In this document: positions 10,800 to 43,380 of the stretch, one piece after another
How positions within the stretch are numbered: the first letter of the stretch is position 1
Layout: each line of letters opens with the position of its first letter
NCBI GenBank assembly: GCA_024642245.1
Contig: JAHEBM010000015.1
Coordinates: forward strand, 1 to 64,000
DNA length: 64,000 nucleotides
Source of the DNA: Haliea sp.
Lineage (GTDB): Bacteria; Pseudomonadota; Gammaproteobacteria; Pseudomonadales; Halieaceae
Reading direction: 5' to 3'
The notes under the pieces: model-generated
Databases searched by the model: none
What the model was told of the DNA's origin: nothing
What the model saw: the letters and a program-made list of their open reading frames with translations, nothing else
Program-made: the position numbers and the translations under genes

Positions 10800-10870
10800 T
10801 CTTCCATGGGTATAGTTCGAGCCTTCGAAATCTAGCGACTTACCTTGGGTGGCGCAAGGGTAGAAACGAA

Positions 10871-11113: not shown

Positions 11114-11225
11114 GACCCGGTCGTAGTACGCACTAAAAGCACTACACTGTCAGGGCATCGAGGCACTACCCTTGTAGAGCCTGTGCGCACTGCGCTTCAA
11201 TTCACCAGGACAACGGGACTGCCCC

Positions 11226-13684
<2,459 letters not shown>

Positions 13685-17009: not shown

Positions 17010-18836
17010 TTGGACAAGCAGCGTCGGACAGGCTGCCTAATTGAGGAAATTCCATTGTCATCTCCTGAACTCAACTCCACGCCGACGAAACACCCGCTGC
17101 CCTTCCGTGCCGCCGATTTTGCCACACTGACTGAAGCCCTGGACTACGCCGCAAAAGGCGAAACCGGAGCCAATTTCTACACCGGTCGCGGCGCCATTTA
17201 CAGCGCATTGCCCTACAGCGAATTGCGCGCGCAGGCCATCGAGCTGGCACACAAGCTGCTGGGGCTGGGTGTTGAGCCGGGCAGCCGTGTGGCACTGGTT
17301 GCCGAGACCGACCCGGAGTTCCTCAAATTCTTCTACGCCTGCCAGTACGCCGGCCTGATTCCCGTCGCGCTGCCGGCCTCTATCAAGGTGGGTGCGCACC
17401 TGGCCTATGTGGCCCAGCTGCAACGCCTGCTCGAGGCCAGTGATGCCGCGATCGCCGTGGCTTCAGAGGGCTACCTGTCGTTCCTGCAGGAAGCCAGCGA
17501 AGGCCTGGCCATGCGCATGGTGGACATGCCTGCGTCATTCCATGCACTGCCCCGCGGCGAGCAGGCGCTCCCCCGGATCATGCCCGGCGATATCTCCTAC
17601 ATCCAGTACACGTCCGGCAGCACACGTTTCCCGCGCGGCGTGGTCATCAAGCACCAGACCGCACTGGCGAACCTGCAGGGTATCATCGGCCACGGCCTGA
17701 TGATGAACGGTGACGATCGCATGATGTCCTGGCTGCCCTTCTACCACGACATGGGCCTGGTGGGCTTTATGCTGGTGCCGATGGCGGCGCAGGTTTCCAT
17801 CGACTACCTGGATACTCGCGAATTCGCCATGCGCCCGCGCCAGTGGCTGGACCTCATGACCAAGTCGCGCGCCAGCATTTCTTTTGCGCCGTCTTTCGGT
17901 TACGACCTCTGCGCCCGTCGGGTACGCCCGGCCGACCTCGAAAACTACGACCTGAGCAACTGGCGCGTGGCGGGTATCGGCGCGGAGATGATTCGCCCCG
18001 AAACCCTGGACTACTTTGCCGACCTGCTTGAGCCCTGCGGCTTCGACCGCCGCGCGTTCCTGGCCTGCTACGGCATGGCCGAATGCACCCTGGGCATCAG
18101 CTTCTCTCCCCTGTGGACCGGTTTTACAACCCACCACATCGACAGTGACCACCTGTCCGACCATCATCGGGCCGTCCCGCTGGATGACGGTGACAAGCGG
18201 GGCCGCGGCCGCCACTTCGTCAACTGCGGCATCCCGCTGCCGGGCTTCGAAGTGCAGATTCGCGACGGCGAGGAGACGGTACTGGACGACTGGCACAGCG
18301 GCGTAATCTACCTGCGCGGACCCAGCGTTATGTCGGGCTATTTCAACCTGCCGGAAGAATCCAGTCACGCGCTGGACGCCGACGGCTGGCTGAACACCGG
18401 TGACATCGGTTACCAGGTCGATGGTGTGCTCACGATTACCGGTCGCAAGAAAGACCTGATCATCATTCACGGCCGCAACATCTGGCCGCAGGACCTGGAG
18501 CACATTGCCGAGGCCGAACCCGAAGTGCGCTCCGGTGATGCGGTGGCCTTCTCGGTACCGGACCACGAGGGCGAGGAGATGTGCGTACTGCTCGTTCAGT
18601 GCCGCGAGACAGACAGCAAGAAGCGCAACAACCTGGTGCGCCGCCTGAGCGCCCTGATGCGCCTGGAAATGAGCCTGGACTGCTATGTCGAGCTTGTTCC
18701 TCCGCGCTCGCTGCCCAAGACCTCCTCGGGCAAGCTGTCCCGCGCCAAGGCGCGCCTGGACTTCATCGCCTCCCACGAGGCCGACAACCTGAACGCGGTG
18801 ACCGAAGAGTTCCGCCTCAGAATCGCATCCGCCTGA
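17010..18836 (+). CDS. Fatty acyl-AMP ligase / acyl-ACP synthetase
   Basis: AMP-binding YIQYTSGSTRFPRGVVI, GWLNTGDIGYQVDG, ITGRKKDLIIIHGRNIWPQDLE. Confidence 0.88.
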   Translation: MDKQRRTGCLIEEIPLSSPELNSTPTKHPLPFRAADFATLTEALDYAAKGETGANFYTGRGAIYSALPYSELRAQAIELAHKLLGLGVEPGSRVALVAETDPEFLKFFYACQYAGLIPVALPASIKVGAHLAYVAQLQRLLEASDAAIAVASEGYLSFLQEASEGLAMRMVDMPASFHALPRGEQALPRIMPGDISYIQYTSGSTRFPRGVVIKHQTALANLQGIIGHGLMMNGDDRMMSWLPFYHDMGLVGFMLVPMAAQVSIDYLDTREFAMRPRQWLDLMTKSRASISFAPSFGYDLCARRVRPADLENYDLSNWRVAGIGAEMIRPETLDYFADLLEPCGFDRRAFLACYGMAECTLGISFSPLWTGFTTHHIDSDHLSDHHRAVPLDDGDKRGRGRHFVNCGIPLPGFEVQIRDGEETVLDDWHSGVIYLRGPSVMSGYFNLPEESSHALDADGWLNTGDIGYQVDGVLTITGRKKDLIIIHGRNIWPQDLEHIAEAEPEVRSGDAVAFSVPDHEGEEMCVLLVQCRETDSKKRNNLVRRLSALMRLEMSLDCYVELVPPRSLPKTSSGKLSRAKARLDFIASHEADNLNAVTEEFRLRIASA

Positions 18837-19771
18837 TTCCCAGCGGCAGCCTGATCGCCGTTACCGGCGCCACAGGATTTATCGGCACGGCCCTGTGCCG
18901 TGCGCTGCTGCAAGGGGGTTTTCGCGTACGGGCCCTGGTCCGAAACCCGGATAAAGCACGACACCTTTCCAGCCAGGGGGTCACCCTGGTCACAGGTGAT
19001 CTCGAGGACGCCGCGGCGCTGCAGGAGCTGGTGGACGGCAGCGATGCTGTCATCCACGCCGCCGGCGCCGTCAGGGGCAGCTCCCGGGAGAGCTTCGATC
19101 GCATCAATGTGGCCGGGACCGCGCATGTAGTGTCCGCCCTTCAATCCCGGCACCCACCTCCCCGCCTGCTGCTGCTGTCATCCCTGGCCGCCCGGGAACC
19201 GGGCTTGTCCTGGTATGCCGCCAGCAAGCGCGCCGCGGAGGCCCTGCTGGAGGCGCAACCCGCGCTGGACTGGCTGATCCTGCGCCCTCCCGCCGTCTAC
19301 GGCCCCGGCGACAGGGAGATGCTGCCGCTGTTCCAGGCGATGTCCCGCGGTATCGCCACGGTACCTGGCGATGCCAGTGCCCGAACCTCCCTGGTGCATA
19401 TCGACGACCTGGTAGAGGCGATAATCGCCTGCCTGCAAAGCGAGGGCACCCGCCACCAGACCCTGACCCTCTGCGATGGCAAGGGCGGCGGTTACGACTG
19501 GCGCGAAATGGCCGACCTGGCGGGGGAAGTCTGGGGGCGCAGGGTTCGCCTTTGGCAGGTACCGAGGTGGCTACTGGACTGCGCGGCCTGGGTCAATGTT
19601 CGCAGTGCCCGACTGACCGGCAGGGCCCCGATGCTGACGCCCCCCAAGCTCAGGGAGCTGCGCCATACCGACTGGGTGGTGGACAACCGCATGATCACCC
19701 AGCTCACCGGCTGGAACCCTGGAATCGGTTTGCGACAGGGCCTGCAGGCGCTGCGCAAAGCGGAACTATGA
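18833..19771 (+). CDS. NAD-dependent epimerase/dehydratase (CerR-like candidate)
   Basis: VTGATGFIGTALCRALL Rossmann motif, YAASK catalytic motif; start codon uncertain (CTG/ATT). Confidence 0.75.
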   Translation: MIPSGSLIAVTGATGFIGTALCRALLQGGFRVRALVRNPDKARHLSSQGVTLVTGDLEDAAALQELVDGSDAVIHAAGAVRGSSRESFDRINVAGTAHVVSALQSRHPPPRLLLLSSLAAREPGLSWYAASKRAAEALLEAQPALDWLILRPPAVYGPGDREMLPLFQAMSRGIATVPGDASARTSLVHIDDLVEAIIACLQSEGTRHQTLTLCDGKGGGYDWREMADLAGEVWGRRVRLWQVPRWLLDCAAWVNVRSARLTGRAPMLTPPKLRELRHTDWVVDNRMITQLTGWNPGIGLRQGLQALRKAEL

Positions 19772-19858
19772 CAGCAAATTCCGGTCCGATCAGAACAGCT
19801 GCCTGCGGTATAATCATCGGCTAAACCACGCACAAATCCCACAGGGTAGACTGGTTCC

Positions 19859-20848
19859 TTGGCTGAGTTCATTGTTGGCAATTCGCTGCGCAAGTTGGCG
19901 CGGGAACACCGGTTCCTGCAGAGCCTGCTGTGGCGGCTGGACTATGCCTTCGTCTGGCTGCTGGTGTGGCTGGCACGCCGCCTCCCCGTCGATGCCGCTT
20001 CACGCTATGGCGACAGGCTCGGCACCTGGATAGGCCCGAAACTGAAACGCAAGACGGCCATTTACCGCGCCAATCTCGCCGTGGCCTTCCCCGAGCTGGA
20101 TGACAAGGCCCTGGATGAACTGGTGAAAAAGTCCTGGGGCCAGGCCGGCCGCGTGTTGGCGGAGTATCCTCACCTGGATACCATCCTGACCGAAGAAGGG
20201 CGCATTGTAATCGAGATTCGCGAACCCATTACCACCTTCGACAACCCTGGCCAGCCCTGCGTAATCGTCAGCGCGCACCAGAGTAACTGGGAGGTCGCCT
20301 GCTCGGCCATGGCCAAGATGGGCATACCCAACGCCAGCCTGTACTCGCCCCCAACCAACCCGCTGCTCGATCGCCTCCTGCTGGAGTCCCGCCAGGCCCT
20401 GAACTGCCAGTTGCTGCCCAGGGACAACAGTGCCCGGCTGCTGATGCGGGCCCTGAAAGAGGGTCGCACCGCGGCAATGGTCATGGACCGTCGGGTTGAT
20501 GAGGGCAAACCGATCCGCTTTTTTGGCCACGACAAGTCCTCCACCATCCTGCCGGCCAAACTCGCCCTTAAAAACGACTGCGAACTCGTGCCCGTCCAGG
20601 TGGAACGCCTGCAGGATGCGCGTTACCGCGTTATTTTCCACCCGCCGGTGCGCCCCACAAACCCGGCAGCGGACGAGACAGCCCAGGCAATTGACATGAT
20701 CCAGCAGATTCACACCCAATTCGAGTCCTGGATCCGCGAACGCCCGGCCGACTGGTTCTGCTCCAAGCGCCTGTGGCCCAAAAATACCGTACCGACGAAA
20801 CCAGAGGTAAGCGGCCCTGACGCCGACATCGATTCCTATGCAGCCTGA
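19859..20848 (+). CDS. LpxL/HtrB-like lysophospholipid acyltransferase
   Basis: H-X4-E motif SAHQSNWE, ANLAVAFPEL, AMVMDRRVDEG. Confidence 0.82.
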   Translation: MAEFIVGNSLRKLAREHRFLQSLLWRLDYAFVWLLVWLARRLPVDAASRYGDRLGTWIGPKLKRKTAIYRANLAVAFPELDDKALDELVKKSWGQAGRVLAEYPHLDTILTEEGRIVIEIREPITTFDNPGQPCVIVSAHQSNWEVACSAMAKMGIPNASLYSPPTNPLLDRLLLESRQALNCQLLPRDNSARLLMRALKEGRTAAMVMDRRVDEGKPIRFFGHDKSSTILPAKLALKNDCELVPVQVERLQDARYRVIFHPPVRPTNPAADETAQAIDMIQQIHTQFESWIRERPADWFCSKRLWPKNTVPTKPEVSGPDADIDSYAA

Positions 20849-25560: not shown

Positions 25561-26253
25561 TCAGTAGGCGCCCCGCGCCAGCAGTACCGCGGGCACCGTG
25601 CGCAGCAGCAGGCTGATATCCAGCCACAGGGAGCGATTTTCGATGTATTCGATATCAAGGCGCACCTGCTCCGGAAAGGGGATATCGCTGCGCCCTGATA
25701 CCTGCCAGGTGCAGGTGATACCCGGCTTCGCTGACAGGCGCCGTTTTTCGTAAGCCGAATATTGCGCCACTTCCTGGGGCACCGGCGGGCGCGGGCCAAC
25801 CAGCGACATATCGCCTGCCAGCACGTTCCACAGCTGCGGCAATTCATCAATCGATGCCTTGCGAATGAAGCGACCCACCCGGGTAATGCGCGGGTCGTGC
25901 TTCATCTTGAAAGTGGTACCCCCGGCCATTTCATTTTGTGACAGCAACTCCTGCTTGCGCTGCTCGGCATCGACGAACATGGAACGGAATTTCCAGCAGC
26001 GAAAAGCAACACCGCCCTCACCGATACGGGTCTGGGTGAACAGCACCGGACCGGGTGACTCCAGCTTGATCAGTACCGCCAGCAGGGCGAAAAACGGGCT
26101 TAATAGCAGCAGGCCCACTGCGGCTCCAACACAGTCCATACCGCGTTTACACCACTCGTACAATTTTGCCGCCGGTACTGCCGGCACCATAGACGGGGAC
26201 TCAGCCAGTGATGCCCCCTCGTAACTTGCTTCTTGCCAAAGTAGATCAGACAT
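25561..26253 (-). CDS. Undecaprenyl-phosphate sugar transferase (initiating PHPT)
   Basis: KRGMDCVGAAVGLLLLSP, KFRSMFVDAE, KASIDELPQLWNVLAGDMSLVGPRPP. Confidence 0.92.
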   Translation of the reverse strand: MSDLLWQEASYEGASLAESPSMVPAVPAAKLYEWCKRGMDCVGAAVGLLLLSPFFALLAVLIKLESPGPVLFTQTRIGEGGVAFRCWKFRSMFVDAEQRKQELLSQNEMAGGTTFKMKHDPRITRVGRFIRKASIDELPQLWNVLAGDMSLVGPRPPVPQEVAQYSAYEKRRLSAKPGITCTWQVSGRSDIPFPEQVRLDIEYIENRSLWLDISLLLRTVPAVLLARGAY

Positions 26254-28739: not shown

Positions 28740-30099
28740 ATTGATCACCGCGCGGCCCGTCCACGGCCCCCGCAGCCACCCCGGCTCACGACTGGCCGGT
28801 CCGTTGCGCCGGGCACTGCCCCTGTGCACCCTGGCTGCCAGCCGCGGCGGCGCCATCCTGGCGCAGTTTGCGGCGCAGCTGGCGGTCGGCGCAATGGCCG
28901 GGGCCGGTGGACTGGGCATCCTGCAGCTGTTCACCTCCTGGACCTGCATAGCGGGTGAAGCGCTGGGGCAGGGTCTGCCCACCAGGACCCTGCGCCAGGT
29001 CGCCGTAGACTATGCCGACCAACGGCCGGACCTGATCGAACAGACCCTGGCCGAGGCCCGCCAGCGAATCCTGGGGGTGTGGTTGCGTGTGGTAATGATT
29101 GCCGCCATACCACTGGCCCTGCTTGCCAGGCAGGAGTTCGCTACAGCCGGGTTTGCTTTTGGCTATAGCTGGCTGTGTTTTGCCGTTCTGCTGAGTGCTC
29201 CGCTGTTCGCCCTGCTGCGCCTGCACGCCGAGTCTGTCAAAGCCGCCGGCGGCGCACTCCCGGCGGTGACCCTGGAAAACCTGGTGTCACCCCTGGCACT
29301 CCTTGCCGTCTGCTCGGCTTGCTTCCTGCTGGGACAGGAAGTGGCGGCGATGACCCTGCTGGCCACCTTTGGCGCGAGTGTCGCCATCACCTCCCTGGTC
29401 TTGCGTCGCCTCGTGCAACAGAAGCTCGCCCTGTTGCAGCCCGGCGATCCTGCTCTCGCCCTGAGCAGGCCTGCAACGGCGCCCGCGGGAGACCTGCTCT
29501 ACCTGTGGGGTACCGGCATGCTGAGTATTGGCTTCCTCCACCTCCCATTCCTGGTAATGCCGTTTTACGTCAGCACGGCCGAGATCGGCGTCTACGCCAT
29601 CGCGCACAAGTTGATCAACGTGATCACCACCGTCCTGTTACTGCTGGCAGCCGTCTATGGCCCCGCGTTCGCTCGCGGCGCGGCGCAAGGTGACATTGCC
29701 GGCCTGCGGGGCTCGCTGCGCCGTACCCAGCTCATTTCTATCGCCGTATTCCTGCCCACATCACTGGCCCTGGTTGCACTGGCACAACCGCTGGCCACAC
29801 TGTTCGGGGAGGACTTCGGTGACCTGCAGCTCTTCCTGGCCATCCTCGCCGCCGGCCACCTTGCCAACGCCTGTACCGGCCTGTCGGGGGTATTGCTCAC
29901 TATGGCGGGAGCAGCCCACAGGGAGCTGGCAACCCTGTTACTGGCCCTGGCCATCGCGCTGGCGGGCAGCCTTTGGGCCGGGCCGCGCTATGGGGCGGTC
30001 GGGCTGGCCCTGGTATTCAGCGGCAGCATTGCCCTGAAAAACCTCGCCTCTTACGCAATGGCCAGGCACCTTTTGAACACGCATTTGGACAAATCATGA
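28729..30099 (+). CDS. Polysaccharide flippase-like membrane protein (Wzx/MATE-like)
   Basis: Multi-TM protein in glycan operon; IGVYAIAHKLINVITTVLLLLAAVYGPAFARG. Confidence 0.75.
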   Translation: MQAELITARPVHGPRSHPGSRLAGPLRRALPLCTLAASRGGAILAQFAAQLAVGAMAGAGGLGILQLFTSWTCIAGEALGQGLPTRTLRQVAVDYADQRPDLIEQTLAEARQRILGVWLRVVMIAAIPLALLARQEFATAGFAFGYSWLCFAVLLSAPLFALLRLHAESVKAAGGALPAVTLENLVSPLALLAVCSACFLLGQEVAAMTLLATFGASVAITSLVLRRLVQQKLALLQPGDPALALSRPATAPAGDLLYLWGTGMLSIGFLHLPFLVMPFYVSTAEIGVYAIAHKLINVITTVLLLLAAVYGPAFARGAAQGDIAGLRGSLRRTQLISIAVFLPTSLALVALAQPLATLFGEDFGDLQLFLAILAAGHLANACTGLSGVLLTMAGAAHRELATLLLALAIALAGSLWAGPRYGAVGLALVFSGSIALKNLASYAMARHLLNTHLDKS

Positions 30100-31028
30100 A
30101 ACCACTGGATTTCCTTATCATCGGTGCGCAGAAATGCGCCACCACTGCCCTTTTCGAGCATCTGCGAGGGCACCCGCAAATTGCCATGCCACTGCAAAAG
30201 GAGGTGCCGTTTTTCACCCGGGAGACGTGTTCGAAAGAAGACTGGCACACTTTCTCCGGCGAGCATTTCGGCAAAGATCAGGAGCACAAGCTCTGGGGCA
30301 AGGCCAGCCCCCAGTACATGTGCGATCCGCGGGTGCCGGAGCGCATCCGCTTGCTCATGCCACACACGAAACTGGTGGCGATCCTGCGCGACCCCATGGA
30401 ACGCAGCTGGTCACACTTCCAGATGGGTCAGCGCAGGGACACCGAACAGGGCGACTTTGCCTGCGCGGTGGAGTCACTGCTGGAAAATGAAAAGCTGGCA
30501 GCCGCTCGCCTGCTTCCCGTGCCGGAACATGCCGAAGGGTACCAGTCGGAGGCGGATTTTTACGTGGCGTGGAGCGAGTATGGCCGCGCCCTGACCCATT
30601 TCGCCGCCAGCTTCGACCCCGGGCAGTTACTGGTCCTCTATACCGAGGATCTCGAGAGCCAGCCCGAGGCAACGCTTGACCGGCTGCTGGCGTTTATCGG
30701 TCTCGAGCCCGGTTATCGCCCGCCCACCCTGGGCGAGGTAATCCACCGGGGCGGCGGTGGCAAGCGTATACCGCACGCCATCAGGGTCCGATTGCGCGAA
30801 CAGAAGCTGTTGTACTGGTTGTGGCAGCAGCTGCCCGCCGCGCGGCGCGGACGCCTGCGCTTCCAGTACGAACAGTGGAACATCACCAGGGGGAACAAGG
30901 ACGGCCTGTCCCTGCCCGCGCCCCTGCAGTGCGCGTTGCGGGACCACTACTCAGCGGACCTGCGCACACTCCTGACCCTACCGGTAGCACCTCCGCCGTG
31001 GATCGACCGCTACCTGGACGTGGCCTAG
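30096..31028 (+). CDS. Sulfotransferase domain protein
   Basis: DFLIIGAQKCATTALFEHLRGHPQI, VAILRDPMERSWSHFQM; start at MKPLDF. Confidence 0.88.
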   Translation: MKPLDFLIIGAQKCATTALFEHLRGHPQIAMPLQKEVPFFTRETCSKEDWHTFSGEHFGKDQEHKLWGKASPQYMCDPRVPERIRLLMPHTKLVAILRDPMERSWSHFQMGQRRDTEQGDFACAVESLLENEKLAAARLLPVPEHAEGYQSEADFYVAWSEYGRALTHFAASFDPGQLLVLYTEDLESQPEATLDRLLAFIGLEPGYRPPTLGEVIHRGGGGKRIPHAIRVRLREQKLLYWLWQQLPAARRGRLRFQYEQWNITRGNKDGLSLPAPLQCALRDHYSADLRTLLTLPVAPPPWIDRYLDVA

Positions 31029-31261: not shown

Positions 31262-34216
31262 ATGAAGCAATTACGACAGTTGATACGTTCAGCATCACCG
31301 GCCCGGGCCGCGGCCCCGCGCCTGATCACCTGCTTGCTGGCAACAGCCCTACTGGGCGCGATGCTACCAGCCCAGTTGGTGTCGGCCAGCGACAGCTACA
31401 AGCCATTCGTCGAATCCCTGCAGGCGACCCAGAGCCGCGCTTACATGCAGGCGGCCTCCAGCGGCCAGGATGAGCCGCTGCCTGAACCCGAGCTACCGCT
31501 GGAAGTACCCACTGCCCTGGAAGTCCCGCAAGAGACATCCCGGCTGGAACAATTGGCGGAAGAGAAGACCCGGGCACTCAGTCTTGATGAGAAGCAACAG
31601 GACCAGGTCCTGCACGAGGACCTGCAACAGTTCGGCTACGATATCTTCAACCGTGTACCGACCACCTTCGCCCCCGTCGCCGGTATTCCGGTTCCCGCGA
31701 ACTACCAGATCGGGCCGGGCGACAACATCATTGTGCAGCTGTTCGGCAAGCGCAACGTCGAATACAAACTGGTCGTCACCCGCGACGGCAATATCCTGGT
31801 GCCCGAATACGGCCCGGTCAAAGTATCCGGCCTGACTTTCGACGAAGCCGAACGCCTGATTACCGAGGGGTTTGAGCGCCGCGTGATCGGTGCCAAGGCG
31901 GTCGTCACCATGGGCCAGCTGCGCACAATCCAGATCCGCCTGGCTGGCGATGCCGTGCAGCCGGGCGTTTACACCGTCGGCGGCCTGTCCACCGTGATTG
32001 ACGCCATGCTCGCCTCGGGCGGCGTCAAGCACAGCGGATCCCTGCGCAGGATAGAGCTGATCCGGGACGGCCAGGTGATTGAAAAACTGGATCTCTACGA
32101 CCTGCTACTGCGTGGCCGCAGCGACCACGATGTTTACCTCGCCCACAACGACACGATCTTCGTACCGCCCATTGGGCCGATTGTCTACGTGGGTGGTGAA
32201 GTCCAGCGCCCGGCCATCTATGAACTGCTTGACGAAAAAACCGTCGGGGAGGCCATTGCCATGGCCGGCGGCTTACTGCCGACCGCGTCGCTTGAGCACT
32301 CTCACATCGAACGAATCCAGGCTGCGGGGACCCGCACGTTGATAGATTTCTCCAGGAGCGGCAACAACGACGCCATGCTCGGTGCAGCCCTGCGAACCGG
32401 TGACCTGCTGCGCATCCTCCCGCTGGAGGACGAGCTGAATGACGTCATACTGCTGTCGGGTCACGTCAAGCGTCCCGGTGGCTATCAGTACCGCGAGGGC
32501 ATGCGGGTCAGCGCAACCATCCGCTCGGTAGAGGACCTGCTGCCCGGCGCGGATGTGGATTTCATGCTGATCAAGCGCGAAAGCAGCAGGACCCTGCGCA
32601 CCGAAATTATCTACGTAAACCTTATGGAGGCACTCAACAATCCCGGGGCAGAACAGGATATCCGGCTGAAGTCCCGCGACCAGCTGGTGGTGTTCAACCT
32701 CGCCGCCAGCCGCGAGCAGGCCGTGGCGGGTATCGTGCAGGAACTCGAGGTGCAGGGCACCGACTATCGCCCGGCGCGCATCGTGGAAACACGCGGTGCC
32801 GTGCGCTACACCGGGCGGCTGCCACTGCAGGAGAACGGACGCCTGCTGGACGTTCTTACCCTCAGTGGCGGGCTGCGACCCGGCGGTGAGCTTTACTACG
32901 GCATCATCGCCCGCACACTCCATCCCAGCAGGGATATCAAGACCATCATCTTCAGTGTGGCCGCGGCTACCGCCGACCCCGCCTCTGTGGCCAACCCGGT
33001 GATCGAACCGGGCGACCGGCTGTATTTTTTCGATGACAAGGGCAACCGGTCTGAACTGCTGGCGGACGAGCTGGATCGACTGCGCCAGCAGGCCACCTAC
33101 GGTGCCGACGAGCAGCTGGTTTCCATCATGGGCGAAGTGCTGCACCCGGGCACCTACCCATTGATCCCCGGCATGCGCGCCAGCGACCTGCTTTGCGCGG
33201 CGCGGGGCCTTACCCGCAAAGCCTACGGGCTGGGCGCTCAGCTCTCACGCATCCAGCGCAACCCCAATGCCGACAACAGCATGCAACATATCGACCTGGA
33301 GAGTGAGAGCCTGCTGCAGTTGTGTGACCAGTCACGCCAGCTCCTCGGGCACAGCGCCCATATCGACGCGGACAGCGAACAGCAAAGCCGCTATTACGAC
33401 ACGCAGACAAACCCGGTCCTGGAGCCCATGGACCAGGTGGTATTCACCGAAAAATCGGGTTGGGTGGAGCGCGCCACGGTGACGATATCCGGTGAGGTAA
33501 AGCACCCGGGCGTGTACGCCATCGATCGCGGCGAAACCCTGTGCAAGGTGATGGAACGCGCCGGCGGAATGACCGATGACGCCTACAGCTTCGGTACAGA
33601 ATTCAGCCGCAGGTCCGTGCGCCAGATGCAACAGAAAACACTGGACGAATTACACGACCAGCTCGACGACCTGATGGTCGACCTGTCGCTCTCCCACGGT
33701 TTCAACAAGGGGGAAAAAGCACCCGCAGAGTGGTCCGCCGGCAAGCAGGATTACATGAAGACCATTCGCCAACTGGAACGCGCACAGGCGACGGGCCGCA
33801 TGGTAATAGACATGGAAAAGATCATGAAGTGTCGTAGCAAGAATGACCTGGCACTGGAGGATGGCGACAGCCTGAATGTGCCGCGCACCCCGGACTTCGT
33901 GCAGGTGGCAGGCCAGGTCTATGTACCCACCTCTCATCTTTACGACGAGGACCGCAAGATATCTGACTACATCGAGCTTAGCGGCGGCAATACCGTTCTG
34001 GGCCGCATCGACGACGCCTATGTCATCCAGGCCAATGGCGAAGTGCTCAACGCCAGGGGCAGTCGTCGCTCTTCGCGGATCGCGCAGGAGAGTGTCATGC
34101 CCGGGGCCAGGATCTACGTACCCCTGGACGTCGACAGGATGAACGACACCGAGAAAGCACAGACCTGGGTAGACACACTGGTCCGCTCCGCCATCCTCGC
34201 CGGTATCGTCATCTGA
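31262..34216 (+). CDS. Large Wza/SLBB-type polysaccharide export protein
   Basis: NYQIGPGDNIIVQLFGKRNVEYKLVVTRDGNILVPEYGPVKVSGLTFDEAE plus repeated GEVxHPGxY segments; start at MKQLRQ. Confidence 0.88.
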   Translation: MKQLRQLIRSASPARAAAPRLITCLLATALLGAMLPAQLVSASDSYKPFVESLQATQSRAYMQAASSGQDEPLPEPELPLEVPTALEVPQETSRLEQLAEEKTRALSLDEKQQDQVLHEDLQQFGYDIFNRVPTTFAPVAGIPVPANYQIGPGDNIIVQLFGKRNVEYKLVVTRDGNILVPEYGPVKVSGLTFDEAERLITEGFERRVIGAKAVVTMGQLRTIQIRLAGDAVQPGVYTVGGLSTVIDAMLASGGVKHSGSLRRIELIRDGQVIEKLDLYDLLLRGRSDHDVYLAHNDTIFVPPIGPIVYVGGEVQRPAIYELLDEKTVGEAIAMAGGLLPTASLEHSHIERIQAAGTRTLIDFSRSGNNDAMLGAALRTGDLLRILPLEDELNDVILLSGHVKRPGGYQYREGMRVSATIRSVEDLLPGADVDFMLIKRESSRTLRTEIIYVNLMEALNNPGAEQDIRLKSRDQLVVFNLAASREQAVAGIVQELEVQGTDYRPARIVETRGAVRYTGRLPLQENGRLLDVLTLSGGLRPGGELYYGIIARTLHPSRDIKTIIFSVAAATADPASVANPVIEPGDRLYFFDDKGNRSELLADELDRLRQQATYGADEQLVSIMGEVLHPGTYPLIPGMRASDLLCAARGLTRKAYGLGAQLSRIQRNPNADNSMQHIDLESESLLQLCDQSRQLLGHSAHIDADSEQQSRYYDTQTNPVLEPMDQVVFTEKSGWVERATVTISGEVKHPGVYAIDRGETLCKVMERAGGMTDDAYSFGTEFSRRSVRQMQQKTLDELHDQLDDLMVDLSLSHGFNKGEKAPAEWSAGKQDYMKTIRQLERAQATGRMVIDMEKIMKCRSKNDLALEDGDSLNVPRTPDFVQVAGQVYVPTSHLYDEDRKISDYIELSGGNTVLGRIDDAYVIQANGEVLNARGSRRSSRIAQESVMPGARIYVPLDVDRMNDTEKAQTWVDTLVRSAILAGIVI

Positions 34217-34219
34217 ACC

Positions 34220-35203
34220 ATGGAAACTCAAATGCAACAAGTAGCCGTTAACAGCACACCCGAAGCCGCCGCGGCGTCGATAGACCTGATGCCGTACATC
34301 AACGCGCTTATCGACTACCGCTGGTGGTTGCTGGCCGCTGCACTGGCCAGCGCGATCCTGACGGCGGTAGTGGTTTACTCCAAACCCTACATGTACCAGT
34401 CAGGGGTCAAGGTCAGCATTGTCGACATCGAGGACCCGGGCGGAGTGTCTCCCGACGATCGCCGTGCTTCGGAGGTTCTCACACTGGTGGAGCACGGGTT
34501 CGTAATGGGCACCACCCATGACAACTACAACGCCGTCATGGAAGCCCGCCTGATCTCCCGCGCCTTCACCACCTATTTCCTGGAGGAATTCAATATATAC
34601 CGGCACCTTTACCCCGAGCAGTGGGACGCAAAAAAACAGCGCTGGATAGACGGCTTCACACCCGACCTGGGCGAAAGCTTCACCCGCTTCCGCGATGAGG
34701 TGCGCGTGGTGGAACACGATGAGGAGACCGACATCATAACCGTATCCATGCGCTGGCAGGATCCTGTCGTTGCACGGGACATGGCCAATCAGTATGTGAC
34801 AGCGTTCAACGAGTACATACGCCAGCGGACCCAGGCCGAAGTCGTTCGCAAACAAGCGTTCCTGCACGAGGAGTTACGCCGCTCTGACATCCTGGAGATC
34901 CAGCAGTCCCTGTATCGCCTGATCGAGGCACAAACGGCAATAGCCATGCTGGCCAGTGCGCGCGAGGAGTACGCACTGGAGATCGTCGATCCCGCAGCGA
35001 CCCCTTACAAGAGTTTCAATATGTCGCGCAAACGCCTGGTCATACTGGGCACACTCGCCGGCACCTTTATCTCGATATTCCTGGTACTTGGACTGGTACT
35101 CGTACGCGACATGCTGCGGACATTGCGCCAGTTCCGGGAAATAGAGATGAACGGCAACAACCAGGCCGATCCCGCAATTGATTTCGCTAACGGAGAAAAA
35201 TGA
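34220..35203 (+). CDS. Wzz/chain-length determinant family protein
   Basis: Two terminal TM segments flanking a coiled region; VDPAATPYKSFNMSRKRLVILGTLAG. Confidence 0.8.
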   Translation: METQMQQVAVNSTPEAAAASIDLMPYINALIDYRWWLLAAALASAILTAVVVYSKPYMYQSGVKVSIVDIEDPGGVSPDDRRASEVLTLVEHGFVMGTTHDNYNAVMEARLISRAFTTYFLEEFNIYRHLYPEQWDAKKQRWIDGFTPDLGESFTRFRDEVRVVEHDEETDIITVSMRWQDPVVARDMANQYVTAFNEYIRQRTQAEVVRKQAFLHEELRRSDILEIQQSLYRLIEAQTAIAMLASAREEYALEIVDPAATPYKSFNMSRKRLVILGTLAGTFISIFLVLGLVLVRDMLRTLRQFREIEMNGNNQADPAIDFANGEK

Positions 35204-35204
35204 G

Positions 35205-36791
35205 ATGAACACAATGGCTTACCCGCAACAACGGGACTGTGTTAACTCCCTGGGTATTCCGGTCGACAACCTGTCACTGCAGCAGGCGGTTGACCGGATC
35301 ATCGACATGGCAAAAAGCCGGGACGGCAACACCCGCCTTGTATCGACCCTGAACGTGGATTTCCTGGTAAATTCGCTGGGCTGGGCATTCAGTCGACCGC
35401 GCCACCCGGAACTACTTAACGTACTGCGCAATTCCGACCTGGTAACCGCTGACGGATTTCCGATTGTCTGGCTCAGCAAGATCGCAGGCACGCCACTGCG
35501 CCAGCGGGTTACTGGTTCGGATATGACACCTGCGCTTGCCGCCAGGGCCGCCCGCGAAGGGCTGTCACTGTTCCTGCTCGGTGGCGGCGAGGGGGTCGCG
35601 GCCGCCGCGGCAGAAACCCTCCAGGCGAGCCACCGGGGCCTCAGGATCGCCGGCACGTCAGCCCCCTTTATCCACACCCAGGGGCCCGCCCTGGCGGATT
35701 TTGCCGCTGACGACAGGGTAGTCCTGGACAATATCAACAATTCCGGTGCAGACATATTGCTGGTGGGATTGGGCAATCCCAAGCAGGAATTATGGTTCAA
35801 TCGCAACAGGCATAAGTTGCAGGTGCCGGTGGCCATCGGCGTTGGTGGCACGTTCGAATTCATTACCGGGAAAACCAGGCGCGCACCGCAGTGGATGCAG
35901 CGACTGAACCTGGAATGGGTCTACCGCATCTCCCAGGATCCCGTGCGACTCTGGCGCCGGTATGCCAAGGGGCTGTTCAAGCTAGGTGCGCTGGCCAGCC
36001 CGCTTATTTATTACAGGATCAAGGAAGACCTGCTTTATAGCGGTATGCGACGCGAGAAAAGCGCGGCACCAGAGTGGCGCTCGATCTGGTCCTCGCGCGA
36101 CCAGTCCCTGGCTGTGCTACGCCTGCCAAGCCTTTTGACCCGGCAGTACCTGGAACAACTCGTGCGATCACTGCAGGCGGGCCGCCTGGAAACCGCGACG
36201 CGACTGCTCGACTTCAGCCAGGTAAAACACGTCGAAATCAGTGGCCACCAGGAGTTTTTCACCCTGGCTGATATGTTGCGCGACCCACAAAACGATATTT
36301 CCCTGCTGGGCATGACCGCCGCGGTAAAACGCCAGCTTGCCGCCTGCCGCCTCATGGACGTACTGGGTGAAAACCAGGAGGGGAACACCCTGAATGCCCT
36401 GAACAGCAAGGCTGGCAAACGCGCCAAACAGGGCCTTTGCTGCAAGAGTTACATGATGGGCAATACCGGGCTGATCTTTCTCGCCGGGCGCATCGACGGT
36501 GACAGCCTGGCCCGCATCGGATTTGTTGAGAGCCTGCGCGACAGCTCCAGGGATCGCACCTGCATTCTCGACTTCCGCGATGTGGCGCTGCTCGAAAGCT
36601 CGGCAATCGCCGAGCTGTACCCACTCATCAAGTCACTACAGGAAAGCGAAAAAGGCGAAATCCTGGTAAGCGGAGCCGGTCCCAACATCCGCCAGATGTT
36701 CCGCATGGCGGCGCTGGAAAAACCCGTGCGCTTTATCGACGACACCGCATTACTGGCCATGCTGGCTACAGGGGAGAACACCCATGACTGA
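35205..36791 (+). CDS. WecG/TagA/CpsF (GT26) glycosyltransferase fused to two C-terminal STAS-like modules
   Basis: GT26 motifs VTADGFPIVWLSK, GLGNPKQELWFNRNR, GVGGTFEFITGKTRRAPQWMQRLNLEW; then DFSQVKHVEISG and DFRDVALLESSAIAEL. Confidence 0.85.
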   Translation: MNTMAYPQQRDCVNSLGIPVDNLSLQQAVDRIIDMAKSRDGNTRLVSTLNVDFLVNSLGWAFSRPRHPELLNVLRNSDLVTADGFPIVWLSKIAGTPLRQRVTGSDMTPALAARAAREGLSLFLLGGGEGVAAAAAETLQASHRGLRIAGTSAPFIHTQGPALADFAADDRVVLDNINNSGADILLVGLGNPKQELWFNRNRHKLQVPVAIGVGGTFEFITGKTRRAPQWMQRLNLEWVYRISQDPVRLWRRYAKGLFKLGALASPLIYYRIKEDLLYSGMRREKSAAPEWRSIWSSRDQSLAVLRLPSLLTRQYLEQLVRSLQAGRLETATRLLDFSQVKHVEISGHQEFFTLADMLRDPQNDISLLGMTAAVKRQLAACRLMDVLGENQEGNTLNALNSKAGKRAKQGLCCKSYMMGNTGLIFLAGRIDGDSLARIGFVESLRDSSRDRTCILDFRDVALLESSAIAELYPLIKSLQESEKGEILVSGAGPNIRQMFRMAALEKPVRFIDDTALLAMLATGENTHD

Positions 36792-37818
36792 TTCGACAAT
36801 ATACGTGGTCCTGCTCAACTGGAACGGCTGGCGGGATACGGTGGCCTGCCTGGAATCCCTGTTTGCTTCCACCGGGGTCTCCCTGCGCGCCATCGTATGC
36901 GACAACGCCTCCAGTGATGGCAGCCTGGAGCGGATAGCGATGTGGGCGGATGGGGAGCTGGCGGTCGAGCCACCTGGCCACCCGCGCTTGTCGCGCCTGC
37001 TGCTCAAAGCGCCGCTGCCACTGCCCTATGCGACGATCGATCGCGCCACCGCGGAGCAGGGAAACTGCGATCCCGCTGCCTCCCTGGTACTTATCGACAA
37101 TGGCGGCAACCTGGGTTTTGCCGCCGGCAACAACGTGGGACTGCGCTTCGCCCTTAAGCAACCGGATATGGACTATGTGTGGCTTCTCAACAATGACACG
37201 CTGGTCGAGCCCGCTTGCCTGGCCAATATGGTGAAATGCCTGCAGGGTACACCGGCCCCGGCGGTATGCGGCTCCATGATCCACTTTTTCGATCGGCCCG
37301 AGATTATCCAGGCTATCGGCGGCAACCGCTTCAACCGGATGACCGGCCAGGCGGCCTGCTCGGAGGGTCGCTTCGCCCACGAACGCGCCGCACAGGATAT
37401 CGACTCTATCGAGCAGGAGCTGTCCTATCTCAGTGGTTGCTCCGTACTGCTGCCGAGGGACTTCCTGGAAACGGTCGGGCTGATGGGCGAGGACTATTTC
37501 CTCTACTACGAGGAGATTGACTGGTTTACCCGGGCCGGGGGCCGCTATCGCCTGAGGATCGCGCCGGATGCCCGCCTGTATCACCGGGAGGGTCGCTCGA
37601 TCGGTTCCAGGAGTTACAGCCGCGCCGCCTCGACGCTGTCAGATTTCCACATGTTCCGCAGCAGGCTGATCTACATGCGCAAGCACCAGTTGCGCTTCCT
37701 GGCCATGTGCTATGTGGACAGCTGGCTGGCGGTAGCAAAACGCCTGCTGCGCGGGCAGTTTCGCAATGCCTGGACAGTCGGCTCAGTTCTGCTGGGCAGG
37801 CAGGCGTTTGGCGGCTGA
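36784..37818 (+). CDS. Family 2 glycosyltransferase
   Basis: VVLLNWNGWRDTVACLESL, CDNASSDGS, NGGNLGFAAGNNVGLR, WLLNNDT. Confidence 0.92.
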   Translation: MTDSTIYVVLLNWNGWRDTVACLESLFASTGVSLRAIVCDNASSDGSLERIAMWADGELAVEPPGHPRLSRLLLKAPLPLPYATIDRATAEQGNCDPAASLVLIDNGGNLGFAAGNNVGLRFALKQPDMDYVWLLNNDTLVEPACLANMVKCLQGTPAPAVCGSMIHFFDRPEIIQAIGGNRFNRMTGQAACSEGRFAHERAAQDIDSIEQELSYLSGCSVLLPRDFLETVGLMGEDYFLYYEEIDWFTRAGGRYRLRIAPDARLYHREGRSIGSRSYSRAASTLSDFHMFRSRLIYMRKHQLRFLAMCYVDSWLAVAKRLLRGQFRNAWTVGSVLLGRQAFGG

Positions 37819-37821: not shown

Positions 37822-39102
37822 GTGAGCGCGGCAACCATCAACATGAAGGCGCCTCCCTACCGGCGACCCCTGCTGGCACTCAAGCTCCACCCGATCATCA
37901 TGGGGCTGGTTTTCATCGCCGTTTTTGCCGGCTGCCAGGGCGGTCGTTATTACTTCGCGAACCGGCTCCAGGAGCTGGGCATCGCCAGCGCTCTCACACT
38001 GTTTGCCATGGGCATCTGGCAGGGACTGTTTCGCCTGTCGCGGGAGGAATGGCTGGTTTGGGTGCGCCGCCCGATGCTGCTCATTTTCGGCATCATGCTG
38101 ATCAGCTCGGTGGTCTTCAGCCTCAATTTTACCGGCAATGTGCTGTACAGCTTTTTCTCCGCCCGGGAATTCATGCTCGCTTTTGCGGGTCCCGGCATCT
38201 ACCTGCTGTGCCGTTGCGGCCTGCCGCTGGCCTCGGTCGAGCGGGCTATATGGGCCGCCCTGGTTGCACTGATGCTGAACTACCTGTATTTCTACAGCAC
38301 AATGGACCTGCGGGAAGCGTTCTTCTCACCCGACCACACGATAAGCAACCTGGTCACCTACGACGAGTGGCGCGGTTTCCGGCTCAAACCACCGCTGTTC
38401 GCCATCATGGTAGGCCTGCTCGGTGCCCTGATGCTGCTGGTGCAATCGCGACGACCGGGCACTATTCTCGGCGCGGCGCTGGTGGTCGGTCTGGCCGCCT
38501 ACATCTGGAGCATCGTCATGTTCCGCTCAACCCTCGCCACCATGCTGCTGTCCATGCTGCTCTATCCGATTTTCCTCAACCACCGCAACCGCCTGCACCT
38601 GATAGTGGTGCTCGCGCCCCTGGTACTGGTGCTCCTGCCCGTGGTGGCGCAGGTGGCCCTGTCAGAATTCATGACCGCCGACGGCGGCAATATCCGCGCC
38701 AAGGCTTTCATGTTGGCGTTCGAACATATCCCGCACCATTTTTTCCTGGGGGCGGGAGAAGACAGCTCCTACGGGGATACCGAGCAGGATATCGTGGCGC
38801 CCTATTTTTTCTCCTCCGACCTCGGCCTGGTCGGTACTTTCTATAAATACGGGCTGGTCGGCACCTGCCTCTACCTTTTCATGCACGGCAAGATATGGCG
38901 CGCGCTGTGGCGGTCCAACATGGCCGCCCGAAAACACACCGGCCGTCACAACGCCCTGCTCTGGGCCCTGCTGATATTCTTCACGGCACAGACGTTCAAC
39001 CTGGCGCTCAATCCGGGCCTCGCCTATGCCCAGGGCATTACCCTGGGCGCCATCGCCCTGGCCCTCGCTCACTTACACCTTGTGTCCGCCGCGCGAAATT
39101 GA
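37822..39102 (+). CDS. O-antigen ligase/polymerase-like membrane protein (Wzy/WaaL)
   Basis: Polytopic membrane protein in glycan operon, FRSTLATMLLSMLLYP; GTG start. Confidence 0.78.
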   Translation: MSAATINMKAPPYRRPLLALKLHPIIMGLVFIAVFAGCQGGRYYFANRLQELGIASALTLFAMGIWQGLFRLSREEWLVWVRRPMLLIFGIMLISSVVFSLNFTGNVLYSFFSAREFMLAFAGPGIYLLCRCGLPLASVERAIWAALVALMLNYLYFYSTMDLREAFFSPDHTISNLVTYDEWRGFRLKPPLFAIMVGLLGALMLLVQSRRPGTILGAALVVGLAAYIWSIVMFRSTLATMLLSMLLYPIFLNHRNRLHLIVVLAPLVLVLLPVVAQVALSEFMTADGGNIRAKAFMLAFEHIPHHFFLGAGEDSSYGDTEQDIVAPYFFSSDLGLVGTFYKYGLVGTCLYLFMHGKIWRALWRSNMAARKHTGRHNALLWALLIFFTAQTFNLALNPGLAYAQGITLGAIALALAHLHLVSAARN

Positions 39103-39357: not shown

Positions 39358-40788
39358 ATGAATACCAGGCCAAAAGTACTGATGATCGAGGACAGCATAT
39401 CGCTGTCCGCAATCTACAAAGCCTACCTGGATGACACGGACTACCAGCTTGTGACGGTGGAGCGACTGGGCTCCGCCCACGCGGTGCTGGGCGCTTTCCA
39501 GCCGGATATCGTGCTGTTGGATATCGAGCTGCCCGACGGCAATGGCCTGGATTTCCTCGACGATGCCACTACCCTGCCCAACCCGCCGAAAATCATAGTG
39601 ATGACCGCGCACGGCACCTCCGACATGGCGGTAAAGGCCATCCAGCGGGGGGCGTTCGATTTCCTGACCAAACCATTCGATGCGGCTCGCCTGAAGGTCA
39701 CGCTGGCCAATGCCGCCGCCCAGCTGCAACTCGGCAAACGGGTCAACGAGCTGGCCAGCCTCGAGCGCGATCACTACTGCAATTTCATCGGCCAATCGCT
39801 GGCCATGCAGTCCGTGTACAAAACCATCGACTCGCTCGCGGCGAGCGACGCTACCGGATTTATCGTCGGCGAGAGCGGCACCGGCAAGGAACTCGCGGCA
39901 GAGGCGATTCACCAGCAGAGCCCGCGCCGCAACGCCGCCTTCATCGCCATAAACTGCGGGGCCATTCCCGGCGAGCTGATGGAAAGCGAACTGTTCGGCC
40001 ACGTTAAGGGCGCCTTCACCGGCGCCAGCAATAACCGGGAGGGAGCCGCCCGGGTCGCAGATGGTGGTACCCTGTTCCTGGACGAGATTTGTGAAATGAG
40101 CCTGGAACTGCAGAAAAAGCTGCTGCGCTTCATCCAGACCGGCACCTTCCGCAAGGTCGGCAGCAACACCCTGGAAAAGGTGGATGTACGCTTCCTCTGC
40201 GCCACCAACCGCGACCCCCTGGTCGAGGTCAGGGAGGGGCGTTTCCGCGAGGACCTGTTTTACCGCCTCCACGTTGTTCCTGTGCGCATGCCACCCCTGC
40301 GCGAACGCGATGTCGATGTCATGATGATCGCCAACCACTTCCTGCGGCAGTTCAGCGAGCAGGAAGGCAAGGCATTTACCGGGTTTTCTCCCGAGGCAAC
40401 CCAGGCAATCCGGCGTTACGCCTGGCCAGGCAACGTGCGCCAGTTACAGAATGCGATGCAACAGGTGGTCGTTCTCAACACCGGGCAAACAGTGGAATAC
40501 AACATGCTGCCGGACCCGGTCACCAGCGGCGCACTGCAGACAGAACCCGCACCCGCGAGGTCCCGGGCGCCCGCTGCCGCACCTGCACAGTATCCCCCGG
40601 AACAGTCGCACCTGGTAAGGCGCCAGCAAATCGAGCCATTGTGGCTGACTGAGAAAAATGCCATCCAGGCAGCACTCGATGCCTGCGATGGCAACATCAA
40701 CCGCGCCGCGGGCCTGCTGGAGGTCGCGCCTTCCACACTGTATCGCAAGCTGCAGACATGGAAGGACGTTTCGGCATTAAACCAATAA
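39358..40788 (+). CDS. LuxO-like sigma-54-dependent response regulator (REC-AAA+-Fis HTH)
   Basis: IEDSISLSAIYKAYL receiver, GESGTGKELAAEAIH, ESELFGHVKGAFTGA, C-terminal DGNINRAAGLLEVAPSTLYRKLQTW. Confidence 0.93.
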   Translation: MNTRPKVLMIEDSISLSAIYKAYLDDTDYQLVTVERLGSAHAVLGAFQPDIVLLDIELPDGNGLDFLDDATTLPNPPKIIVMTAHGTSDMAVKAIQRGAFDFLTKPFDAARLKVTLANAAAQLQLGKRVNELASLERDHYCNFIGQSLAMQSVYKTIDSLAASDATGFIVGESGTGKELAAEAIHQQSPRRNAAFIAINCGAIPGELMESELFGHVKGAFTGASNNREGAARVADGGTLFLDEICEMSLELQKKLLRFIQTGTFRKVGSNTLEKVDVRFLCATNRDPLVEVREGRFREDLFYRLHVVPVRMPPLRERDVDVMMIANHFLRQFSEQEGKAFTGFSPEATQAIRRYAWPGNVRQLQNAMQQVVVLNTGQTVEYNMLPDPVTSGALQTEPAPARSRAPAAAPAQYPPEQSHLVRRQQIEPLWLTEKNAIQAALDACDGNINRAAGLLEVAPSTLYRKLQTWKDVSALNQ

Positions 40789-40804
40789 AGCTGGAGGAAA
40801 TCCC

Positions 40805-41356
40805 ATGTACGGCCTTATAAACAACTCATTGAAAGATATGATTCTCCAGCAATTCGGCGAGGAGAAGTGGCGGCAGGTGCTTGCCGTTTCCGGCGTCCCC
40901 GAGGACTCGTTCCTCTCGATGCGCCGCTACGATGACAGCATTACCTATGACCTTGCCGGGGCGGCCTCGGAGGTGCTGGGCGCCCCTGTAGCGGCCTGTC
41001 TTGAAATGTTCGGCGAGCACTGGGTGCTTGAGACCGCTAACAAATCCTACGGCATGCTGCTGGACTCCGCCGGCCAGGACATGCTCGGCTTCCTGCAAAA
41101 CCTGAATGCCCTGCACGATCGCATCACCAGCACCTTCCTGGACTATGTGCCGCCGGAGTTCCAGGTCGAACAGAAGGGCGAGCACCACCTGGTTCACTAC
41201 CGCAGCAAGCGCCAGGGGCTTACACCCTTCGTGGTCGGCCTGCTGAAGGGCCTCGCCGTCCGCTTCAACAGCAGGATGACAATCCTCAGCCAGACCGAAG
41301 TGGAGGTGGAGCAGGGAGCGCATACTATTTTTGAAGTGGAGATATCGCCCGCGTGA
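40805..41356 (+). CDS. H-NOX heme nitric oxide-binding sensor
   Basis: MYGLINNSLKDMI N-terminus, proximal-His region LNALHDRI, YxSxR as HYRSKRQGL. Confidence 0.92.
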   Translation: MYGLINNSLKDMILQQFGEEKWRQVLAVSGVPEDSFLSMRRYDDSITYDLAGAASEVLGAPVAACLEMFGEHWVLETANKSYGMLLDSAGQDMLGFLQNLNALHDRITSTFLDYVPPEFQVEQKGEHHLVHYRSKRQGLTPFVVGLLKGLAVRFNSRMTILSQTEVEVEQGAHTIFEVEISPA

Positions 41357-43380
41357 ACGACAAGGATGGTATTTCATGGGAGGAGCTGAACCGGCTGTTC
41401 TCCGTCGTGCTGTGCCTGGACGAATCCATGGCGATCATCCACGCCAGCGAGACGCCGCTGAAATACATGCCGGATTTGCAGGCGCGCCCGGCCCTTGCCG
41501 ACGCGTTCGATGTGAGGCGGCCCAATGCCCTGTCTTCCTATGCCGACGCTATTGCCGGCCTGCAGTCACTGTGCCTGCTGACCGCAAAAAACCGCCGCTT
41601 CGCGGTCCGCGGGCAACTGGTGCGAGCCCGTTATAACGACCAACCGGTAATTTGCTTCTGCGGTTCACCCTGGCTGTTCTGGATCAATACCCATTGCCCG
41701 GACATCAGGCTCGGCCTGACGGATTACTCGATGCAGGACGTGCAACTCGACCAGCTCTTTTTCATGAACACGGAAAAGCAGATGGTGCAGGACCTCGAGA
41801 AGCTCAACGATGAGCTGCAGGCTGCCAAGGTCGCCGTCGAAAAAGCCCAGGAATCCCAGCGGCGCTTTTTCGCCCAGATGAGCCATGAAATGCGTACGCC
41901 GCTGAACGGCATCGTAAGCGCCCTCAGCCTGCTGGACGGCGAGCCTGCGGAGGCCCTCAGGTTGAAGCTACTTCCGCTGGCAAAAAGCTCTTCCGAAAAC
42001 CTCATGGAGGTCATCAATTACGTGCTCGACGTCTCCAAGCTGGAATTTACCGGGATAGACGAAGGGGCGAAGGTCTTCAACCTCTCGTCACTGCTGCATA
42101 AGGTCGAAAATGTGGTGCACGCCAGGGCCGTGGAAAAATCACTGGAAATGCGCCTCAATCTGGAGATCCATCCGGCCTGGAACTTCTCCGGCCAACCACA
42201 GCTGCTGCAGCAGGCCCTGCTCAATCTATTGATCAACGCCATCAAGTTCACTGATAGCGGCTCGATCACGCTGAACTGCCGACCGGTTGCAATCAAGGAT
42301 GGACGGCACACCCTGCGGTTTGAAGTGGTGGACACCGGTAGCGGGATCGCTGCAGATGACCGGGAGCGCATATTTGAACCTTTCTGGAGCGGCCACGCGG
42401 ATACGGATAAGGGCATTGAAAAAGGCACGGGATTGGGTCTGGATATCGTGCGACGCAATATCGAGCACATGGGCGGTAAAGTAGGGCTTGAATCCACTGT
42501 GGGCTCTGGCTCCACTTTCTGGTTTCAGCTGTGCCTGCCACTGGTAAGGACAGAAGACATACCAGATTCCACGATCGACAATATAGAGCCGGACGCGACA
42601 ACAATCGGGGGTCGGGTCCTGCTCGTGGATGACAACGATACCAACCTGCTGCTTGGCTCCATGATCCTGGAGTCGCTTGGCGTTGAAGTGGTAACGGCGA
42701 GCGGTGGAGCCGAAGCCATAGCGGTGGCCAGAGTTGGCGGCTTAGACATGGTATTGATGGATCTCACAATGCCCGAGGTAGACGGGCTTGAGGCTACACG
42801 GAAAATACGTGAATTTGCGGATGACACCGTTTTGCCGATCGTAGCGCTCACGGCCCACGCCGATACCCTGGAAAAGCAAGCCTGCCTGGCGGCCGGCATG
42901 AATGCTTACCTTACCAAACCCATCGTCAGGGAGGCGTTGGCCAACGCCCTGCGTCGCTGGATTCCCGAAACCGCCACGGCAACACCGCCGCCCAGCGACC
43001 CTGCCACGGCACACACTGTTAACGCGGCCGAGCCGCACGCCAGGCTGTTGCATCTGTCGGTGCTGGAGGAACTCGAACAACAGATTGGCCGGGGCAACCT
43101 GGCAACGGTTGTCGACAAGGTCCTCACGGAAGCGGACCAGCGCTGGGATGAGCTGGTCGCGGCTGAAAGCGCCGGCGACCGGGCCACGGTGCAACGCCAC
43201 GTGCACAGCCTTGCCAGCATCTTCCGCAGTGTCGGCCTGCTCGAGGCCGGGGACGCCCTGGCCGCGATCGAGATCAGCTTGCGGGCGGGAGAGGAACTTG
43301 CCGGCGACTGGCTGGCGACTCAGGAACGTCTCAAATCCACCAGCCTGCGGGCGCTGGGTGAAGCGCTCCAGGCCAGGTAA
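41353..43380 (+). CDS. H-NOX-associated hybrid histidine kinase (HNOBA-like sensor, HisKA, HATPase, REC, Hpt)
   Basis: HNOBA-like DVQLDQLFFMNTEKQMVQDLEKLNDEL; FFAQMSHEMRTPLNGI; GTGLGLDIVRRN; LLVDDNDTNLLL..VLMDLTMPEVDG; Hpt QRHVHSLASIFRSVGL. Confidence 0.92.
   Translation: MNDKDGISWEELNRLFSVVLCLDESMAIIHASETPLKYMPDLQARPALADAFDVRRPNALSSYADAIAGLQSLCLLTAKNRRFAVRGQLVRARYNDQPVICFCGSPWLFWINTHCPDIRLGLTDYSMQDVQLDQLFFMNTEKQMVQDLEKLNDELQAAKVAVEKAQESQRRFFAQMSHEMRTPLNGIVSALSLLDGEPAEALRLKLLPLAKSSSENLMEVINYVLDVSKLEFTGIDEGAKVFNLSSLLHKVENVVHARAVEKSLEMRLNLEIHPAWNFSGQPQLLQQALLNLLINAIKFTDSGSITLNCRPVAIKDGRHTLRFEVVDTGSGIAADDRERIFEPFWSGHADTDKGIEKGTGLGLDIVRRNIEHMGGKVGLESTVGSGSTFWFQLCLPLVRTEDIPDSTIDNIEPDATTIGGRVLLVDDNDTNLLLGSMILESLGVEVVTASGGAEAIAVARVGGLDMVLMDLTMPEVDGLEATRKIREFADDTVLPIVALTAHADTLEKQACLAAGMNAYLTKPIVREALANALRRWIPETATATPPPSDPATAHTVNAAEPHARLLHLSVLEELEQQIGRGNLATVVDKVLTEADQRWDELVAAESAGDRATVQRHVHSLASIFRSVGLLEAGDALAAIEISLRAGEELAGDWLATQERLKSTSLRALGEALQAR

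Follow-up and report, generated by a model that had tools for sequence, protein, structure and literature searches.

The window, by which we mean the whole 64,000-nucleotide stretch of Haliea sp. DNA that was analysed, appears to hold a Wzx/Wzy-type exopolysaccharide (EPS) locus. An initiating polyprenyl glycosylphosphotransferase, or EPS sugar transferase, is encoded on the minus strand (25561..26253; TIGR03025 over its cut-off). The following genes are on the plus strand: a probable Wzx-type flippase (28798..30099; NF041503 WZX_like, E 2e-5, below the cut-off of that model), an outer-membrane polysaccharide export protein (OPX) with Poly_export and SLBB domains by Pfam (31265..34216), and a 327-aa Wzz-like chain-length/co-polymerase protein (34220..35203) recognized by profile matches, in which profile searches found no kinase domain. 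The gene studied here (35205..36791) belongs to the same operon as the export gene; its ATG lies one base past the stop of the Wzz-like gene, behind a purine-rich, ribosome-binding-like stretch, and its 3' end overlaps the start of a GT2 glycosyltransferase gene (36784..37818; Pfam). Downstream lie a probable Wzy-type polymerase (37822..39102), assigned from position and conservation with no library match, and three regulatory genes encoding a LuxO-like sigma-54 response regulator (39358..40788; profiles), an H-NOX (HNOB) haem NO sensor (40805..41356; PF07700, 9e-45) and a hybrid histidine kinase with receiver and Hpt domains (41353..43380; Pfam). The export protein is unusually long (about 983 aa), with several SLBB domains, and adjoins the short Wzz-like protein.

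On profile and model evidence, the single open reading frame at 35205..36791 (528 aa plus stop) encodes one intact protein in which a complete GT26 (WecG/TagA/CpsF) enzyme precedes two STAS domains. The GT26 catalytic core and its C-terminal appendage occupy aa 1-253 (35205..35963; alignment to 7mpk), with Pfam Glyco_tran_WecG at aa 77-253 (E 4e-62) and scores far over the curated cut-offs (PF03808, 209 bits against 27.4; TIGR00696, 155 bits against 69). In the predicted secondary structure a long helix (aa 246-277; 35940..36035) extends the appendage into the STAS region. STAS-2 (aa 408-528; 36426..36788) matches Pfam STAS (PF01740) above cut-off at aa 442-510 (E 1.2e-8), as do 25 of 26 relatives. 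STAS-1 (aa 289-390; 36069..36374) is more degenerate: STAS_2 is found at aa 305-382 of the full protein with E 5e-4, and the isolated unit reaches E 1.7e-4 and 22.2 bits, under the Pfam cut-off of 29.2, while the same model matches STAS-1 of 23/26 relatives. Family profiles of both units retrieve SpoIIAA-type structures from the PDB (best E 4.5e-11 for STAS-1, with SpoIIAA itself at 2e-10; best 2.8e-16 for STAS-2), and the two profiles match each other (E 2e-16).

A full-length AlphaFold2 model built from an alignment of 26 natural relatives (mean pLDDT 82.8, pTM 0.81) places two STAS-like alpha/beta units after the long helix, with a STAS-like order of strands and helices in STAS-1. Foldseek matched this model to solved TagA structures first (TMt 0.93), then to the SpoIIAA–SpoIIAB and RsbV–RsbW complexes. 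Modelled alone, the C-terminal part gave the same STAS matches (SpoIIAA, TMt about 0.8), with an uncertain mutual placement of the domains (pTM 0.53). Because family profile and structure agree, chance resemblance can be rejected for STAS-1, even though the window copy scores below the Pfam cut-off. The complete GT26 domain and two STAS-like units that a first-pass annotation had read from the letters thus hold up, and the absence of a STAS fold, which it had named as grounds for abandoning the idea, was not borne out by structure prediction.

That annotation knew of no GT26 with a double STAS, and the search for such architectures that it proposed recovered a family of at least 37 distinct full-length proteins from marine Halieaceae, other gammaproteobacteria, deltaproteobacterial lineages and Lentisphaerota (31 loci in one collection scan). 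The full architecture was present in 14/140 sampled genomes of the window's family (two split over contigs), 2/369 across its class, 5/24 in the order of L023, 5/141 in the order of L013 (one a fragment) and 9/395 in the phylum to which L022's genome belongs (one of them an incomplete match); in the window's class, GT26 matches otherwise mostly stop near aa 265. In a maximum-likelihood tree of the GT26 cores all 37 fusions fall on one side of a branch with modest support (86/57), which rises to 99/98 when one STAS-less Parachlamydiales GT26 is added to that side. The window's clade is well resolved (100/99), and its sister (87/81) is a gammaproteobacterial group with L015, L016, L019, L023, L026 and L027. 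At the level of sequence, this tree is compatible with a single ancient fusion. One member (L016:9962-12052, plus strand) is a 697-aa protein with an extra C-terminal NUDIX domain, and a separate NUDIX gene lies close to the fusion gene in L027.

The glycosyltransferase itself is expected to be active. Thr48 and Asp83 align in 7mpk with the catalytic Thr37 and Asp65 of TagA, and Arg241 and Arg248 with its active-site Arg214 and Arg221 (roles of these residues: PMC6493773); all four are identical in 37/37 relatives, and activity is predicted on that ground. A proposal for how TagA becomes active (PMC6493773) has the C-terminal appendage fold at the membrane, which completes the active site, as the dimer gives way to monomers. 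The window protein shares this core, the four residue equivalents and the C-terminal helical appendage with TagA/TarA and WecG; TagA, however, ends after the appendage, whereas the window protein continues with about 250 aa of tandem STAS.

Is either STAS unit equipped for phosphorylation? In SpoIIAA the acceptor is the first serine of F-M-D-S-S-G, Ser58, the known phosphorylation site. A gapless alignment to F-M-D-S58-S59-G sets V-E-I-S-G of STAS-1 and L-E-S-S-A of STAS-2 against it, and the Ser58 column therefore places the acceptor position at Ile345 in STAS-1 (codon 36237..36239, plus strand) and at Ser465 in STAS-2 (36597..36599, plus strand). The pattern D-F-x-x-V-x-x-(V/L)-E-x-S, said earlier to contain the phosphorylated serine, does occur literally in both units, but its final S corresponds to S59 of SpoIIAA and the acceptor is the 'x' before it. 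The claim that both units keep the phosphorylated serine thus fails, since the acceptor signature is intact in STAS-2 only, and phosphorylation of both domains is rejected for the window protein because of Ile345. The STAS-2 position is Ser in 35/37 relatives, with Thr in L008 and Gly in L025, and within the Halieaceae clade it is Ser in every row but one, which has Thr. At the STAS-1 position 19/37 relatives have Ser and 18/37 do not; in the Halieaceae clade Ser or Thr remains in L001 alone, and 12 of the 13 rows lack Ser. The Asp of the STAS G-x-L-D loop has been said to help kinase binding (PMC10120452); in STAS-2 it is lost in most Halieaceae and kept in the window protein as Asp431.

The neighbours of relatives speak to the partners of such a serine. 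In L015, L019, L023 and L027 the fusion gene is directly followed by a response regulator (RR) with a SpoIIE-type PP2C, and then by an RsbW-type (HATPase_c_2) kinase of 136-148 aa; in L026 the same RR begins downstream and the contig ends inside it. A response regulator lies directly downstream in all five carriers from the order of L023. In the gammaproteobacterial L016 a Cache-HAMP-PP2C gene lies 1.2 kb upstream, and the deltaproteobacterial L098 and L099 have a 560-aa RR-PP2C-HATPase_c_2 fusion and a STAS gene just upstream. Counting L026 on its incomplete RR, a PP2C lies within 5 kb in 8/26 non-Halieaceae loci from three lineages, two of which also have RsbW-type kinases beside or near the gene; at one count per lineage (3/26) this gives p = 0.002 under an assumed chance rate of 1%. 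Adjacent PP2C or kinase genes are absent from most Geobacteraceae and Desulfobacterota loci. In L022 a PAS-PP2C protein (16955-20038, plus strand) and a STAS-like gene lie about 5.4 kb downstream of the fusion gene.

The closest STAS-less GT26 to the fusion proteins, from Parachlamydiales (L030), stands beside other polysaccharide genes and a 695-aa protein combining RR, PP2C, serine kinase and STAS (7208-9292, minus strand). STAS thus occurs in trans next to this GT26 and in cis in the fusion proteins, which is Rosetta-stone evidence that the two go together. Another fusion of a related kind is seen near the GT26-STAS-STAS gene of L027, where a STAS is joined N-terminally to a bacterial sugar transferase, the initiating enzyme (10343-11338, minus strand).

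No serine kinase or PP2C was found among the genes of the window locus scanned with Pfam, nor in the retrieved flanks of any Halieaceae-clade locus. A search for such genes elsewhere in the genome, also suggested by the first-pass annotation, found two RsbW-type kinases and three PP2Cs encoded away from the EPS locus. C57 encodes a Cache-HAMP-PP2C-HATPase protein together with a STAS; in C108 a GAF-PP2C is accompanied by a separate 164-aa kinase and a STAS; C72 has an RR-PP2C and a STAS, with no adjacent kinase found. These are candidate partners of the fusion protein; being clustered as modules that hold STAS partners of their own, they could serve it only if cross-talk is assumed. A HATPase_c_2 match and a PP2C were present in all 18 carrier genome entries tested (15 distinct genomes), although the kinase matches in L003's genome are weak (38 bits at best), and the phospho-switch hypothesis therefore survived that test. 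An RsbW-like match above 60 bits occurs in 14/15 fusion-carrying genomes as against 2/14 without the fusion (Fisher p 2e-5), an association on which we do not lean because the 14 are a non-random sample, mostly of other genera, and ancestry may explain it, both kinase-bearing ones belonging to fusion-carrying genera.

We propose, with a probability of roughly 0.55, that the GT26 of this EPS locus carries its own phospho-switch and that the window's protein is under phospho-control. As read from the sequence, the enzyme is likely to be controlled by phosphorylation of Ser465. Its reaction would attach one of the early sugars of the undecaprenyl-PP-linked repeat unit. Ser465 would be phosphorylated by a kinase of the RsbW/SpoIIAB type and dephosphorylated by a PP2C under the control of a response regulator or a Cache sensor; in the window's genome both would act in trans from other loci. 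STAS-1 of the window's clade would no longer be phosphorylated and might serve as a spacer or docking surface. As the STAS pair comes straight after the helices with which the GT26 active site is completed at the membrane, phosphorylation of Ser465 or kinase binding would gate sugar transfer, shifting membrane association, oligomeric state or access, and polymer synthesis would thereby be turned up or down post-translationally. If SypA of Vibrio fischeri is a guide, the unphosphorylated form is more probably the active one, the direction being a guess. The regulation by partner switching suggested in the first reading fares differently at two levels: for the family, the PP2C genes in three lineages, the RsbW-type kinases in two and the conserved STAS-2 serine provide strong, if circumstantial, support, but for the window's clade, with no kinase or PP2C in the locus and the STAS-1 serine lost, we can only infer it.

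Those two losses fit another reading as well, namely that the STAS pair is a non-phosphorylated docking or oligomerization scaffold, comparable to MlaB in MlaFE or the STAS domains of SLC26/SulP, which would hold the GT26 to the initiating transferase, the flippase or the co-polymerase, the partner-switch ancestry having decayed in Halieaceae. Conservation of the operon with Wzx, OPX, co-polymerase and Wzy is in keeping with this, and MlaB is found among the profile matches of both STAS units; the likeness of MlaB, which is STAS_2-like, to the window's STAS-1 falls below cut-off in the NCBIfam MlaB model (E 0.0024), and within its ABC transporter MlaB forms a subunit of its own, not a fused domain. 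We consider a pure scaffold less likely than the phospho-switch, though worth bearing in mind, given that the STAS-2 acceptor is retained across the Halieaceae clade, with a single change to Thr, and that kinase and phosphatase adjoin the gene in the sister order. Still less probable, to the point of being a marginal option, is that regulation runs in reverse, the STAS pair titrating an RsbW-type kinase so that news of the enzyme's state or substrate supply is passed on to a circuit with a sigma factor or a diguanylate cyclase, much as SpoIIAA/RsbV work upstream of kinases. Canonical STAS partners do act upstream of the kinase (PMC10120452), and each STAS fold has SpoIIAA of the SpoIIAB complex among its matches; yet a membrane biosynthetic enzyme is an improbable titrating partner, an RR-PP2C already comes with L015-type modules, and no sigma factor is seen between such a module and the enzyme in the partial annotation there. 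That a gene fusion, frameshift or assembly artefact joined GT26 to STAS genes can be dismissed, as full-length orthologues of the same architecture recur across many assemblies, single-contig genomes among them, and amount to 37 distinct proteins.

The proposed phospho-switch on the glycosyltransferase has its closest functional parallel in the SypA–SypE system of V. fischeri, in which a STAS protein and an RR-linked kinase/phosphatase control the symbiosis polysaccharide; control by SypA acts below transcription, unphosphorylated SypA is active, and its target has not been identified (PMC4517449, PMC10120452). The likeness extends to the acceptor serine of the STAS domain and to the RR-PP2C-kinase protein beside the gene in L098 and L099. 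SypA is free-standing, however, whereas the window STAS domains are covalently part of a glycosyltransferase, and a Pfam scan of the window locus found no SypE-like protein. With SpoIIAA/RsbV, SpoIIAB/RsbW and PP2C the family shares the fold, the STAS-2 acceptor serine and the kinase and PP2C families of its relatives' neighbours, although SpoIIAA and RsbV are free STAS proteins controlling sigma factors. A fusion of STAS to an enzyme is not new in kind, since all4160 of Anabaena is cited (PMC8256260) as a glycosyltransferase with a STAS domain, there N-terminal; the STAS-sugar transferase of L027 may be of this kind. Our literature search, which most subscription journals lay beyond, turned up no description of a GT26/WecG protein with STAS domains, nor of the tandem-STAS form beside a partner-switch module.

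Sigma factors are the main targets for which partner switching is known. A family with STAS inside a glycosyltransferase, and with kinase and phosphatase adjoining in relatives, names a target class and one residue. At a little under even odds, we would extend the proposal to the glycosyltransferase as a direct effector of a partner-switching phospho-relay, with EPS synthesis gated by serine phosphorylation of the fused STAS; by the Rosetta-stone argument, from domains fused here and separate at L030, SypA and other free-standing STAS regulators encoded in polysaccharide loci may bind glycosyltransferases or sugar transferases directly. If true, this would mean that polysaccharide assembly is switched on and off directly at the post-translational level, by a route separate from c-di-GMP and from Wzc-type tyrosine kinases.

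The surroundings of the gene are themselves conserved. Most Halieaceae loci share GT4, Wzx, sulfotransferase, OPX, Wzz-like, GT26-STAS-STAS, GT2, Wzy-like, LuxO-like, H-NOX and hybrid kinase genes, with local rearrangements in L001, L003 and L004; L103 and L104 are without the adjacent regulator set (39358-43380 in the window). In Vibrio harveyi a single pathway includes H-NOX, a hybrid kinase and LuxO, and NO affects biofilm (PMC3759921). The window locus therefore has an NO sensor and a transcription regulator alongside, and the conservation of these neighbours suggests nitric-oxide control of the polymer. Three sulfotransferases are encoded around the EPS locus (989-1927, 1924-2835 and 30093-31028), and the exopolysaccharide may be sulfated.
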